Shown: positions 9,788 to 25,859 of the stretch, piece after piece
Layout: each line of letters begins with the position of its first letter
Numbering within the stretch: position 1 is the first letter of the stretch
Source: a virus
IMG/VR virus record: IMGVR_UViG_3300033156_000310
Location: 1 to 26,329 of that record
Length of the DNA stretch: 26,329 nt
Direction: 5' to 3' (one strand)
The notes under the pieces: model-generated
Told to the model about the DNA's origin: nothing
Database searches by the model: none
What the model saw: the letters and a program-made list of their open reading frames with translations, nothing else
Program-made: the position numbers and the translations under genes

Positions 9788-10351
9788 TTATGTATTTTTT
9801 AATCTATCATATTTTTGATGACAAGATGGACATAACTGATAAAAACAATTTATATTTTTTACATATGACATTTCTCTTTTATTAGCCCATTCATATTTAT
9901 TTGATTTATTTGTACAATCAAAATCAAAAATATGATATTCTCTATTTTCACAATGATTAGCCTTTCCGTGTGTTTTATATAACCATGTATGTATATCAAA
10001 ATACTCTTTTTTTGATTTTGCTTTCGTTACTCGATTTGTCCAAGTTTTACTTATGTTTTCACAATGTTCGGGTGTTCTAATTTTACCTGTCATCGTTTTA
10101 CTAATTTGATCTTTTTCACATTGTGGTCTTTTTCTTCCAATATTCGATAAACTCATTCTTTTGCCAGATTCAATAAATATTAATGGATTGTTTTTTCTTC
10201 GAGTATTAACAGATTTTCTTTTTTGTTCGTCTGTCTGTTTTCTACCAAAATTTGGTTGTTGTTCTTTAGGCAATCCTTTGTTCCAAGCAACTTGTACGCC
10301 TTTTTTACCTTTATTCCATACAGGATGTTTAATAAAATCTCGATTATACAT
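9788..10351 (-). CDS. Free-standing HNH-type homing endonuclease with NUMOD3 motifs
   Basis: 187 residues, strongly basic. The N-terminal half carries repeated WNKGK/WNKGL and NFGRKQTDEQKRK, NIGRKRPQCEKDQISKT segments, the NUMOD3 DNA-binding motif. The C-terminal half has HTWLYKTHGKANHCENREYH, a W-N-K-like central segment and YQLCPSCHQKYDRLKN, the zinc-bound end of the phage HNH family in which CxxCH and a preceding Cys ligand hold the fold. The start overlaps the preceding glycosyltransferase stop by 8 nt. No intron signature is next to it, so it is a free-standing mobile endonuclease. Confidence 0.8.
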   Translation of the reverse strand: MYNRDFIKHPVWNKGKKGVQVAWNKGLPKEQQPNFGRKQTDEQKRKSVNTRRKNNPLIFIESGKRMSLSNIGRKRPQCEKDQISKTMTGKIRTPEHCENISKTWTNRVTKAKSKKEYFDIHTWLYKTHGKANHCENREYHIFDFDCTNKSNKYEWANKREMSYVKNINCFYQLCPSCHQKYDRLKNT

Positions 10352-13369: not shown

Positions 13370-13630
13370 TTATTTGAAAATGAATATAACAACTGTCCAA
13401 ATAAGACTTACTAAAATCGTAACAACTGTTATTGTTGTTTTAGTTTTTAATTTATAATTTTCAAGCTCTTTTATTCTGTTGCAGTGATCATGTACATTTC
13501 CGTTGATTTTACCCAAATGTATGTTGATATGTTTTAATTCTTCTTCCATTCTTACTTGTGTCTTAGAAACATTAGCGAGTTCCTTAGAGACATTGAGAAT
13601 TTCTTCGTAGATTTTACTTTCACTTTTCAT
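13370..13630 (-). CDS. Coiled-coil protein with C-terminal membrane helix (XhlA-like)
   Basis: 86 residues. Residues 1-60 form a charged, heptad-like helix (EEILNVSKELANVSK, RMEEELKHINIHLGKI), then HCNRIKELENYKLKTKTT, and a single membrane helix TITVVTILVSLIWTVVIFIFK closes the protein. This matches phage XhlA/holin-associated proteins, which help lysis at the cytoplasmic membrane. No endolysin is seen next to it, so a lysis role is tentative; a tail-linked role is possible. Confidence 0.6.
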   Translation of the reverse strand: MKSESKIYEEILNVSKELANVSKTQVRMEEELKHINIHLGKINGNVHDHCNRIKELENYKLKTKTTITVVTILVSLIWTVVIFIFK

Positions 13631-13639
13631 TTGATTTAC

Positions 13640-13740
13640 AAAATTAAAAAATAAATTGTAATTCCTGCTTCAACATTTCGCTAATGCGACAACTCCACAG
13701 GCTCGACCCGCTTCAACAGCGGTGATAATGCAAACTTTTT
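13640..13740 (-). ncRNA. Predicted omega/reRNA 3' end of the TnpB element
   Basis: In TnpB elements the guide RNA covers the 3' end of the gene, the right transposon end, and about 16-20 flanking bases that act as guide. Here hairpins CCGCT/AGCGG (at the end of tnpB) and TCGC/GCGA are followed by TTGAAGCAGGAATTAC at about 13659-13674, the usual style of right end. The flanking guide would then be the AT-rich bases about 13640-13658. Boundaries are inferred. Confidence 0.45.
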
Positions 13741-14811
13741 GATATTATTTGCTGCTAATATATCTCTATCGTGTGTAGTTTTACATTCTGGACACGTCCA
13801 AGTTCTTTGAGAAAGTTTCAATTCTTTGTTTATCCAGCCACAACTACACATTTTACTGGATGGTTCAAATCTACCAATTGTAAGTAAATTTTTTCCATAC
13901 CATTCACATTTATAAGTTAATTGTCTTACGAATTTAGACCAACTTACATCTGCTATAGCTTTTGCTAAATAATGATTTTTCAACATTTCTTTAACGTTTA
14001 AATTTTCAATAGCATACGTATTCACTTGGTTATCGTGAGTAAGTTGATAAGTTAAATTATGTAAAAAGTTCGACCTTTGATTTGTTATTCTATTATGTAA
14101 TTTTGCTACTTTGAATTTTGCCTTTTTTCTATTCTGACTACCTTTTTTCTTTTTACTTAATCTTCTTTGCAAAATAGATAATCTTTGTTCATTTTCTTTC
14201 GAATATTTAGGATTTTTTATTTTCTTTCCATTTGATAATATAGCAAAATCTTTAATTCCTAAATCAATTCCTATTGTTGTTTTTTCTTTTACTGCTTTCA
14301 ATTTTGGCAATATAATATCTTCTTCGACATTGTAAGAAACAAAATATTGATTGATATTATTTTTTGAAATAGTTGCTTTAATTATTCTACCTTTGAATTT
14401 TCTATCTACTCTTATTTTTATTTCGCCTATTTTAACAAAACTCGCTTTTCTATTTTTCCAATCTATTTTATTTCCTTGTGGCATACTAAATGATCGTTTT
14501 CCTTTTTTACTTTTAAATCTTGGAAATCTATTATGCTTCTTAAAGAAATTAGCATATGCTTTATCTAAATTTCTTAAAGCCATTTGAAGAGATTGAGCAT
14601 TTATTTCTTGTAGCCATTCATTTTTCTTTTTTAATTCAGGAAGTTCTTTTGATATTTCAAAACACGATAGTTGTTTTTTATCATTTTGATATGCTTTGAT
14701 TTTTTGTTCTAAACCATAATTAAATATCCACCGCATTGCTCCAAAATGTTTTTCTAATAATGTCTGTTGTTCTTTGTTCGGATAGATCCGATATTTATAT
14801 CCTTTATTCAT
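13681..14811 (-). CDS. tnpB: RNA-guided endonuclease TnpB, IS605 family
   Basis: 376 residues from the ATG at 14811; an upstream ATG at 14829 would include the -10 box and is rejected. MNKGYKYRIYPN and QQTLLEKHFGAMRWIFNYGL form the N-terminal domain. RuvC motifs: IGIDLGIKDFAILSNG (Asp), YAIENLNVKEML (Glu), and HDRDILAANNIKKFAL (Asp), all present. The zinc ribbon is SSKMCSCGWINKEL and WTCPECKTTHDRD. So the nuclease appears intact. TnpB cuts DNA next to a short target-adjacent motif using a guide RNA from its own 3' end, keeping the element in place. Preceded by a near-consensus promoter with a start at or next to the ATG. Confidence 0.93.
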   Translation of the reverse strand: MNKGYKYRIYPNKEQQTLLEKHFGAMRWIFNYGLEQKIKAYQNDKKQLSCFEISKELPELKKKNEWLQEINAQSLQMALRNLDKAYANFFKKHNRFPRFKSKKGKRSFSMPQGNKIDWKNRKASFVKIGEIKIRVDRKFKGRIIKATISKNNINQYFVSYNVEEDIILPKLKAVKEKTTIGIDLGIKDFAILSNGKKIKNPKYSKENEQRLSILQRRLSKKKKGSQNRKKAKFKVAKLHNRITNQRSNFLHNLTYQLTHDNQVNTYAIENLNVKEMLKNHYLAKAIADVSWSKFVRQLTYKCEWYGKNLLTIGRFEPSSKMCSCGWINKELKLSQRTWTCPECKTTHDRDILAANNIKKFALSPLLKRVEPVELSH

Positions 14812-15269
14812 ATAGATATTATAACACATCTGTACAGTTTGTCAAGTTTCATTTTGTAATTCAAAATAGATAATAATTTTCTACCTAGACATTGCTCTGC
14901 TACGTGTCTACTTTGACGTATTCTTTTGCTATCTACATAAATTACCCATCTATTCTTATGAAGATATTTTCCACCTTTCCAATTCCAACTTTTTTCAAGT
15001 GCATATCGTCCCGTTCTAGATGCACTCATTAGATCTTTTGTAGATTGTTTGTGTTTCTTCCCATACATTCCATTTTTTGTACCCGCTATTAGATATCCTC
15101 GTCCCGTCATTGCATTATTTTTACCAGAATAATCATGATGTTTGTAAAAACATTGTAATGTACAAAATTTTCTTTTTTCAGCAGCCGTTGGTGTAAGATA
15201 TATTGTAATTCCACATCCTTGACATATAAATGGTACTGTGCCTCGACTCCATTGATAAATATTTGACAT
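14808..15269 (-). pseudogene. HNH homing endonuclease cut off before its catalytic motif
   Basis: The frame gives 153 residues. NAMTGRGYLIAGTKNG and GMYGKKHKQSTKDLMSASRTG are NUMOD3 motifs, and NWKGGKYLHKNRWVIYVDSK, RHVAEQCLGRKL fit the HNH_3 family up to the conserved LGRxL. The family then continues with VVHHINGxxxDNRIENL, which is missing; instead the frame runs into the TnpB element's left end and stops at 14808. An AAAGGG lies seven bases before the ATG. Without the HH-N-N residues it cannot cut. The first Cys cluster (CQGCG, CTLQC) suggests a zinc-ribbon at the N-terminus. Confidence 0.8.
14818..14845 (-). promoter_or_regulatory. Sigma70 promoter of tnpB
   Basis: Perfect TTGACA (14840-14845), 16-bp spacer, perfect TATAAT (14818-14823). 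The expected start of transcription is at or within a base or two of the tnpB ATG at 14811, so the message would be leaderless. This is the best promoter match in the window. Confidence 0.8.
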
Positions 15270-15507: not shown

Positions 15508-17019
15508 TTAAACAATCGAGCTCCATCCCTTGCGCCAGTCCCCCCACAAAATTTCCGTTTTTGTTATATGTGAAAAATTTCACAAAGTTAAGTCATTTCT
15601 GCTTAACTCTGAACGTTAGTGCTTCATTTTTTTAAGGTATATAGCACACTTACCTTATTGAACAAAAATTTGTCAATATTATTTTTCCGTTCAGTCCAGA
15701 CTATACCTTGTACTTTTTTAAAAAGTACCTCTCCGTCTAGTCGTTACACTTTCAAAAGCAAATTGCTTAAGCTTAGCTCGGGATTGTCCTCATTATAAAT
15801 AAATTTTTCAATTTATTTAATAAGGAGTTTCCCCGAATTTGAAGAGTAAGGGCAAAAAAATTACCCCTCCAATCGATCGATTTTGTTACTACTTTATTTA
15901 CATAAAGCGGATAAGTCATTTCTGCTTATCTCCACACGTCGCCGCGTGGACCAGACTATCCCATCATCCATTTCTGGATGTTCGAATTATAGTCGTTGAA
16001 CCTTCCTGAATTTTTCAGGCTTGGCTGCAGATTGTCTGCAATCTTCCGTTGTTACCATTTAGGTAGGAAGATATACTCAGAGTTTCCCGCAATTTATCGA
16101 ATTTTATCATTATGAATTGCTTCATAATGCGGCAAATTTGTCTACCGTAGTATAGCTTCTTGCGCATAAACGCAGATTCTGTGTTTGAGGTTAATGAAGA
16201 GAAGACAGGTTTCTTTCGCATCTGTAGAATCAATGGTTTGATTACTCCACGAGTGTCAAACAGGTACCAGTTATTAGCATCTGTAAGATACTCAGAAATC
16301 AAGAGATCTAACGAACCTTTCAGAACGTTGGTTGCCATCTTATTCGTGGTAGTACCTTCCTCTGGATAGAACTGTGAGTTCAATAACTCTTTAGCAGTCC
16401 ATTCAAGATCAGGCGGTACAGTCAACAAATTTGGCTTTGTGCCAGCAGGTTTGCCTTTGTCATTCTTGAATTTTCGCATTGCCGTAATAGCAGCACGAAG
16501 TCCAGAAACGCCTAAAGCATCAGTGCCTTCATTTGCTTGTGTACCCGATTCTCCTTCTGTATGATCTGTTGCAAAGTACGCTTTGCCATCATAACACGAA
16601 AGAGTCACACCATCATAAATAGTGCCCGCTGTTCCCGATGTGCTAGTCCCTTGAGCAATCAATGTGAAAGCCATTTCACCAAAAAATCGCACAGCTTCAG
16701 TAGCAAGTTCTTTTACACGAATTTCAATTTGTCCATATTGGTCGTCATCGATCGCATTTTTGTCAACAGCAATTGAAGATTCAAAATCTCTATTAGCAAT
16801 AGAGAAATTGTGCTCCAACATACCTTGAGGAATACGTTCATCTTTCCATTCGTGCATTTTTGGAACTCCACCAAGCCATGGATATGTTTCAGAACTCTTT
16901 GATGATCCAATTTGCGATGCTAGTTTTGCGTATTCTTTATCAGCTGTTTCGTACGCTTTCATGAACTCTGTTCGCATTCCAGCAAGTAATAACTTCGGAA
17001 TATCACCTTTATTAAGCAT
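15508..17019 (-). CDS. Major capsid protein, Mu gpT-like, split by two group I introns
   Basis: Proposed exons (minus strand): 17019-16144, 15877-15863, and 15555-15508, giving 312 residues, close to Mu gpT. Mu gpT hallmarks: SSKSSETYPWLGGVPKMHEW near 40-59, IANRDFESSIAVDKNAIDDDQYG near 75-97 and SCYDGKAYFATDHTEGESG in mid-protein. Unspliced reading departs from the family after KKLYYG and runs 45 residues into intron sequence. Spliced, the tail becomes IDWRG then EILWGDWRKGWSSIV. Both exon joins are in phase 0. It forms the icosahedral shell. Preceded by the DUF2190-type gene with 3 nt between them. Family call is firm; splice sites are read from conserved features and not tested. Confidence 0.85.
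15556..15862 (-). ncRNA. Group I intron 2 of the capsid gene (307 nt)
   Basis: P1: exon AGGGGU pairs with the guide GCCCUU, leaving the U-G pair at the 5' splice site. The core has TTCGGGGAAACTCC and ACAATCCCGAGCTAAGC (P4-P6), AACGACTA with TATAGTC (P7), a GTACTTTTTAAAAAAGTAC hairpin (P8), then several P9 hairpins including TAAGCAGAAATGACTTA (15589-15605) and TGTGAAA/TTTCACA. Ends AACAAAAACG with terminal G. No reading frame inside. Confidence 0.85.
15878..16143 (-). ncRNA. Group I intron 1 of the capsid gene (266 nt)
   Basis: P1: exon end CGGU plus AGA pairs with TTTGCCG around a CAAA loop. P2 is a perfect 9-bp hairpin CATTATGAA/TTCATAATG (16108-16129). The core has AATTGCGGGAAACTC and CAATCTGCAGCC, then GACTAT (15989-15994) with ATAGTC (15954-15959) as P7 and ATCCA/TGGAT as P8. 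P9 elements include TCCACGC/CGTGTGGA, TAAGCAGAAATGACTTA (15912-15928) and CTTTAT/ATAAAG. Ends AACAAAATCG. No reading frame inside. Confidence 0.88.
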
Positions 17020-24337: not shown

Positions 24338-24338
24338 A

Positions 24339-24411
24339 CAGGAAGGAGGTGAATCGAACACCTGACTCTGGTTTTGGAGACCAGTGTTTTACCTTGCTAA
24401 ACTACCGACCT
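24339..24411 (-). tRNA. tRNA-Trp (anticodon CCA)
   Basis: Cloverleaf on the minus strand: acceptor AGGTCGG/CCTTCCT, D-arm GTTT/AAAC with loop AGCAAGGTA, anticodon arm CTGGT-CTCCAAA-ACCAG (anticodon CCA, Trp), 4-base variable loop, T-arm AGGTG-TTCGATT-CACCT. Positions 4 and 5 of the acceptor face U, giving two mismatches. No CCA is encoded. The first ten bases overlap the end and stop codon of the portal gene. Not all phage tRNAs are this compact. Confidence 0.85.
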
Positions 24412-25859
24412 AAACTTTTTTCTGCAAAAGCACGACCATATGCTTCAAACTTTTCTGTAAAATACGGATCGTCTTTTAGTTTGATTGCTTTTTTAATTAA
24501 TTCTGTTTTTAACTCCTTTGACACTTTAACAGCAGGTTTTTTTAATTTGTCAAATGTTTCTTTCTTACCCGACTCAAAAGCTTTCAAAGCCATTTCTGCA
24601 GGATCCATTCGAGTTTCTAATCCTAAATACTCTGCAACAGAATTAGCTAAAGTTGATACATATTCAGAAGACAATAAACTAGGATCTTTTGTTACTAAGT
24701 TTTTAAATATTTCAAGTAGGTAGTTCTTTTGAGCACTGTGCAACGGTTGAAGCTTAATCTTCGGATAACTACCATTTTTGAAATTCCAATCTATCAATGG
24801 AGCAACAGCCCATTCATTCAAAGTATCCTCCATTGTTCTCATTACAGTCTGGAGCATCATAACAATAAATTCATTTTGCTGGCTAACACCGCTTCCATAA
24901 GTGTATGCATATTTAGATTTTGTCCCCGTTTGAATCGCTTGCGCGAGTGTTGATAATACAATTTGAGTATCATGATGTTCAATTAAACTTAATACATCAT
25001 AACCACTGCTTGCACGATCAATTTCTAAATCAAATCCAGTCGGCAAAGTTACTCTCGTATTTGCTCCAATATTATCTACAGCAGATTCAGCAGCAACTAC
25101 TTCACCGCTGCTCATTGGCTTATTTAGCTTAAGCATTTTTACTCCAATAGCATCAACTTCTGCTTTTTTATGAGCCAGATAATAAAGTTTATGTTTCTTA
25201 TCATAGTGATACCAAGCCGTTTTTAAAATTGACTCTCCATAAAAAGGATGTCTCTCTTTCTGGAAAGTATAAAGAACTATTTTTTCTGGTGGAATATCAA
25301 TATCAACTGTCCTAGTTCCGAATGTAGCTGTTTGATGAACACCTTTAAATCCTCCGTGCTCATCAGCTCTAATCGAAATAGTAGAAGCATCTCGTTGAGC
25401 TAATTTTTTCCATCCAATTTTTCCTTTGTATTTTCCTTCTTTAATTATATGGGGAACTTTTTCATACACACGAAATCCTTCGAAAATAGCTCTGGTCATA
25501 TCAGCAATAATAAAAGAAAGAGGAGTAGACATTCCCCCTTCCTTTTGTGTTTTTAAAAAAACAGTTTCGATAAAATCTCTTTCTCCTTTATCATTTTTGC
25601 CAGGAAGAATTTTAATCGGAGTAGATTGAATTGGCATAGCAAACAGTCTGGTAATTGCACGGATCGTACCATCATTTTCCTGCATTGAAATATAAGAACC
25701 AATAGAACGAGAATCAGGATTTTCTTCCTCATTATAAGTACCAATGACAGTATCAGATCTTAAACCCAATTCATTCATTAATTGAGGCACTGTCAATTTT
25801 GGGGAGTCGTTAGAAATTTTTTTCTTTTTGAATCCCGTTAAAAAAGAATAGAAAGACAT
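24402..25859 (-). CDS. Portal protein, Mu gp29-like (DUF935 group)
   Basis: 485 residues. After a short basic N-terminus: SIGSYISMQENDGTIRAITRLFAMPI, IFEGFRVYEKVPHI, KIGWKKLAQRDASTI, the YGESILKTAWYHYDKKHKLYYLAHKKAE segment and a long C-terminal part with ALAQAIQTGTKSKYAYTYGSG and NEFIVMMLQTVMRTMEDTLNEW. This is the phage Mu gp29-type portal that forms the DNA channel at the capsid vertex. The stop codon overlaps the tRNA gene. The terminase is not in the window and is expected beyond the right edge. Confidence 0.87.
   Translation of the reverse strand: MSFYSFLTGFKKKKISNDSPKLTVPQLMNELGLRSDTVIGTYNEEENPDSRSIGSYISMQENDGTIRAITRLFAMPIQSTPIKILPGKNDKGERDFIETVFLKTQKEGGMSTPLSFIIADMTRAIFEGFRVYEKVPHIIKEGKYKGKIGWKKLAQRDASTISIRADEHGGFKGVHQTATFGTRTVDIDIPPEKIVLYTFQKERHPFYGESILKTAWYHYDKKHKLYYLAHKKAEVDAIGVKMLKLNKPMSSGEVVAAESAVDNIGANTRVTLPTGFDLEIDRASSGYDVLSLIEHHDTQIVLSTLAQAIQTGTKSKYAYTYGSGVSQQNEFIVMMLQTVMRTMEDTLNEWAVAPLIDWNFKNGSYPKIKLQPLHSAQKNYLLEIFKNLVTKDPSLLSSEYVSTLANSVAEYLGLETRMDPAEMALKAFESGKKETFDKLKKPAVKVSKELKTELIKKAIKLKDDPYFTEKFEAYGRAFAEKSLGR

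Follow-up and report, generated by a model that had tools for sequence, protein, structure and literature searches.

Two group I introns on either side of a 15-nt exon in the gpT major capsid gene of an IMG/VR virus

The question raised by this locus is where the major capsid gene ends. In the window, that is, the whole 26,329-base IMG/VR virus record analysed, the gene starting at position 17019 on the minus strand encodes a Mu-like gpT major capsid protein, as indicated by its matches to Pfam Mu-like_gpT (PF10124; 1.9e-56, 192 bits against a curated cut-off of 20.1) and to PHROG 371 (major head protein; 2.7e-61), and upstream of it lie decoration protein and prohead protease genes. The ORF called here, 16015-17019, has 334 aa; its final 42 residues are a reading of intron 1 that ends RQICRIMKQF, where the spliced reading contains IDWRGEILWGDW. 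We are highly confident that two independently acquired group I introns interrupt the 3' end of this gene and are both spliced out of the capsid transcript. The features of this arrangement are as follows:

16144-17019, minus strand: exon 1 of the gpT capsid gene, 292 codons, ending KKLYYG (Pfam, PHROG 371)
15878-16143, minus strand: group I intron 1, 266 nt, without an ORF of its own (RF00028, 86.4 bits; boundaries from intronless relatives)
16130-16136, minus strand: IGS and P1 3' strand of intron 1, UUUGCCG, partner of exon 1 CGGU plus intron AGA
15989-15994, minus strand: P7 5' strand of intron 1, GACTAT (3' strand ATAGTC at 15959-15954; RF00028 alignment)
15910-15930, minus strand: conserved 3' hairpin of intron 1, GATAAGCAGAAATGACTTATC
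15863-15877, minus strand: exon 2, 15 nt, ATCGATTGGAGGGGT, coding for IDWRG (contiguous in the intronless relatives L003, L004 and L137-L145)
15556-15862, minus strand: group I intron 2, 307 nt, with an enlarged P9 and without an ORF of its own (RF00028, 44.8-45.9 bits; intronless relatives)
15848-15856, minus strand: IGS and P1 3' strand of intron 2, UUUGCCCUU, partner of exon 2 AGGGGU
15738-15742, minus strand: P7 5' strand of intron 2, GACTA (3' strand TAGTC at 15703-15699; RF00028 alignment)
15586-15608, minus strand: conserved 3' hairpin of intron 2, AGTTAAGCAGAAATGACTTAACT
15508-15555, minus strand: exon 3, EILWGDWRKGWSSIV plus stop (alignment to the C-termini of intronless relatives)

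Both junctions are fixed to the base by relatives in which the capsid gene is uninterrupted, and the splice points, the 15-nt exon and its phase 0 reading proposed in the initial annotation are borne out. The capsid relatives L003 and L004, 89% and 78% identical, are free of inserts, their C-termini being KKLYYGIDWRGEILWGDWRTGYASVVG and KKLYFGVDWRGEILWGDWRTGYASIVT, respectively, each before a stop; both read through as KKLYYGIDWRGEILWGDWRTGYAS, in agreement with the predicted spliced protein, and align with it without internal gap, over both junctions included. This predicted capsid has 312 residues (KKLYYG + IDWRG + EILWGDWRKGWSSIV), contains IDWRGEILWGDWR in the peptide across the junctions and matches the intronless relatives end to end. 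Presence, boundaries and frame of the introns were computed directly, as was the family-level fold described below. The C-terminus was contiguous over both sites in all 48 other loci inspected, some of which are near duplicates, and the introns were found only in the window and in IMGVR_UViG_3300033143_006098, a second assembly that is 99.99% identical to it (10,879 bases with 1 mismatch); the two introns are therefore real insertions, gained recently on this lineage. A search of IMG/VR with exact junction patterns returned no contig with spliced junctions or intermediates, as expected for records that are DNA.

It could be argued that the introns have decayed and that the capsid simply ends inside intron 1, as in the 334-residue reading, and indeed the open frame continues for about 130 nt into this intron. 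This is, nevertheless, extremely improbable, as no damage is seen in P1, P7, the conserved core or either 3' splice site, and as the intron reading would displace the most conserved C-terminal motif of the relatives, YG.D.RG...GDWR. It follows from the spliced reading that standard gene calling truncates capsids of such make-up, and that the ORF called at 16015-17019 has the wrong C-terminus.

The assignment of both inserts to the group I family was examined by covariance search, by hand and by folding. RF00028 matched intron 1 with 86.4 bits, above the gathering score of 50, and intron 2 with 44.8-45.9 bits (E 2e-10 to 2e-12), 4-5 bits under this score, with all core helices present. In the covariance alignments P1, P3, P4, P5, P6, P7, P8 and P9 were placed as expected, and the helices described at first from the letters alone (P1 with its U-G pair, P4-P6, P7 and P9 in both cores) were recovered by the alignments and the hand check, and most of them by the folding as well. 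In both introns the final U of the 5' exon pairs with a G of the IGS and the last intron base is G; the P1 helices join CGGU of exon 1 with GCCG, and AGGGGU of exon 2 with GCCCUU. The sequences of the helices differ between the introns, yet pairing holds in both: P3 UUCGA/UCGAA, P4 UUGCGG/CUGCAG and P8 CAUCC/GGAUG in intron 1, P3 CUCUUC/GGAGAG, P4 UUCGGG/CCCGAG and P8 GUACUUUUU/AAAAAGUAC in intron 2. The 3' ends are AACAAAATCG and AACAAAAACG, respectively. J7/3 measures only 2-3 nt in both introns, leaving no space for P7.1/P7.2, which are typical of subgroup IA introns. Free folding of 605 nt gave -180.1 kcal/mol, compared with a shuffled mean of -118.7 (z -11.0; 0 of 20 shuffles), and P1, P2, P4-P6, P8, P9 and the 3' hairpins appeared in this constraint-free fold. 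Rfam scans (cmscan) of the whole window and of 3 kb picked up neither intron. Since RF00028 itself detects both in short slices and in a whole-genome search, the miss is probably an effect of filters, and failure to find an intron in a wide scan does not show that there is none.

Splicing itself, like its order, we infer. Two ORF-less introns inside a conserved C-terminal motif of the capsid gene would each fold as a separate P1-P9 ribozyme; the guide GCCG of intron 1 would hold the end of exon 1, CGGU, the guide GCCCUU of intron 2 would hold AGGGGU, the last bases of the 15-nt exon 2, and guanosine-initiated splicing of both would yield the normal 312-residue capsid. The calculated P1 energies, -4.7 kcal/mol for exon 1 and -7.9 kcal/mol for exon 2 with the cognate guides, and -2.3 and -4.9 kcal/mol, respectively, with the guides crossed, suggest that each exon prefers its own guide, the crossed pairing being the weaker for each. 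As judged by pairing energy, the end of exon 2 is about as good a partner for the IGS of intron 1 as the cognate site, so that the mis-pairing of an IGS with the neighbouring splice site, already suspected from the letters, would be possible in energy terms.

A different outcome would arise if the two ribozymes cooperated and some of the transcripts left out the 15-nt exon, so that another form of the capsid, devoid of IDWRG, was made as well. The loss of 15 nt preserves the frame, the introns have their 3' hairpin and 3' end in common, and in a P10-like pairing with the L1 strand of intron 1 exon 3 does better than exon 2 (-2.2 and -0.8 kcal/mol); with the frame left intact and the pairing slightly in favour of exon 3, skipping is possible. 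Precedents are the skipping of a 23-nt exon between two similar introns in Twort orf142 (PMC10136302) and exon skipping in a SIOphi gene, which the source paper (PMC11878797) calls the terminase in its Results and the polymerase in its Discussion. On the other hand, these pairing energies are small, coding explains the sequence of exon 3, as L004 also has GAAATTTTGTGG, and IDWRG is so strongly conserved that a product lacking it would probably be defective. We regard such cooperation as unlikely, and as a little less likely still the more specific proposal that the 15-nt exon serves as a cassette for alternative splicing, with intron 1 using the 3' splice site of intron 2 by means of the shared 3' ends.

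With both introns taken as separately spliced, their origin can be considered. The 3' hairpin is identical in 20 of 21 bases between them, the 3' end AACAAAANCG is the same and a GGT codon precedes both, all of which would fit a tandem duplication, or the repeated homing of one intron into two adjacent sites, as the initial annotation proposed from the shared hairpin. When the hairpin and all sequence 3' of it were removed, the comparison of the introns scored 247, within the range of shuffled sequences (mean 213-223, largest 257-281; ranks 21st and 23rd of 39), whereas each intron scored about 350-394 with introns of the Bacillus phages Goe20 and BpSp, and intron 1 scored 387 with an intron of Escherichia phage RudolfGeigy. 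Consistently, a 48-base stretch of intron 1 recurs with 94% identity in the terminase gene of RudolfGeigy, a spliced gene whose annotation joins three pieces, and a 106-base stretch recurs with 77% identity in BpSp; blastn of intron 2 against phages gave borderline matches only. In addition, intron 2 is devoid of P2 and has a P9 far larger than that of intron 1.

The hairpin, too, is widespread. A 15-mer probe from it, AAGCAGAAATGACTT, has an exact copy in at least 119 IMG/VR stretches, and at least 47 of at least 107 distinct contexts have a P7-like strand upstream and TAACA downstream, compared with 0.3% of random positions. It belongs to phage group I introns in general, being common to dozens of unrelated ones. 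The sharing of the hairpin stands, while its reading as a mark of duplication or repeated homing does not: we hold that reading to be very unlikely, and a recent duplication of one intron, which was considered as a candidate, is largely refuted by the comparison outside the hairpin together with its wide spread. The pair is better explained by two members of one large intron family having arrived independently of each other.

As to the route of arrival, we infer homing in trans, which is plausible and the most likely route because neither intron has a long ORF of its own that could encode an endonuclease. Elsewhere in the window, a 187-aa ORF at 9788-10351 (minus strand) has NUMOD3-like repeats and the ending CPSCHQKYDR, and by eye resembles an intact HNH-type endonuclease; neither Pfam nor PHROGs supports this identity. 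Its product could act in trans on the introns. Downstream of the capsid gene, the region 13370-15269 (minus strand) is an insert of about 2 kb relative to L003, where no more than about 115 bases separate the capsid gene from the next one. It comprises an endonuclease-like ORF (weak NUMOD3), the one candidate endonuclease gene near the introns, an IS605-type tnpB at 13681-14829 overlapping the end of this ORF, and an 86-aa ORF. The frame of the weak-NUMOD3 ORF runs into the start of tnpB, so that it looks like a broken homing endonuclease gene; no intact relatives of this truncated ORF were found in phage records, and only weak fragments in IMG/VR. A sub-threshold match to RAGATH-18 lies at the tnpB 3' end (13662-13701), and the last 10 or so bases of the portal ORF are shared with a tRNA-Trp gene (anticodon CCA) at 24338-24412 (minus strand).

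The capsid gene is followed directly, at 15446-15377 (minus strand), by an RNA element in which an outer stem encloses an H-type pseudoknot; it is present at the same place in L003, L004, L137-L141 and L145. In 8 sequences every one of the 14 chosen pairs was kept (100%), and in 11 pairs both partners had changed, a result reached by 0 of 500 shuffles, counts that lean towards structure as the stems were hand-picked for pairing. Rfam at E <= 1 gave no relevant match in nine relatives, and in the window nothing beyond a sub-threshold match to a plant-virus pseudoknot family that is unrelated. The element was considered as Mu-gpT-DE (RF03012), a candidate rejected since no match was found in the window or near relatives, and it may be an undescribed element of the capsid 3'-UTR or of the leader of the next gene. 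The idea that a third intron follows the capsid stop, at 15508-15270, was also rejected, as RF00028 had no match there and the structure in this region is the pseudoknot. A possible second pseudoknot, formed by CGTTAAGA/TCTTAACG and CTGTTGT/ACAACAG, lies at 15353-15297 (minus strand), just upstream of the broken endonuclease-like ORF.

The initial annotation called tandem introns separated by so few codons rare, a fair description, although the arrangement is not unprecedented. The closest case is Twort orf142, a virion gene of a Staphylococcus phage in which introns 2 and 3 are group I introns in tandem around a very short exon; there the introns are highly similar, the exon has 23 nt and its skipping was observed, whereas here they are dissimilar and flank 15 nt in a capsid gene. 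In Coxiella burnetii 23S rRNA two group I introns also flank a short exon, of 34 nt, with exon skipping (PMC10136302), but this is an rRNA gene of a bacterial host and the exon is longer. In RudolfGeigy, too, a single head-morphogenesis gene contains two group I introns, though this is the terminase large subunit and its two intron matches are about 360 bases apart. In Bacillus phage vB_BpuM-BpSp, the region of the RNA polymerase beta-subunit gene contains several group I introns in tandem that belong to the same sequence family, but the gene is different, the exons are longer and other ORFs separate some of the introns. Single introns are known in capsid genes (PMC3706429): mycobacteriophage LittleE (Cluster J; probably group I) and Tuc2009 each have one within the major capsid gene, in contrast to the two found here, and that of LittleE carries an endonuclease ORF.

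Among 58 records searched with RF00028, the closest pair of full-length introns was the present one, with 17 bases between the models, followed by BpSp with 52 bases (exon of about 44 nt by eye). In this survey, which is small and leaves organelle genes outside, 15 nt is the shortest internal exon met; tandem phage introns with tiny exons are already known, and the extreme exon length is what this case adds. In the record of the BpSp beta-subunit region (KT895374.1, 188500-194500), split by several group I introns, these introns are unannotated, and two further IMG/VR loci, L037 and L130, have tandem group-I-like intron pairs with 3' hairpins 372 bases apart.

At this locus nature would provide two dissimilar group I ribozymes that must both act on one 15-nt exon, whose first bases would touch one ribozyme while its last six pair with the other. 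Since the exon is shared, the order of splicing, interference and skipping can all be tested directly, in a gene that has to supply hundreds of copies of its product. If the cassette reading were true, a regulated share of the capsid subunits would lack IDWRG, and head assembly would be changed.
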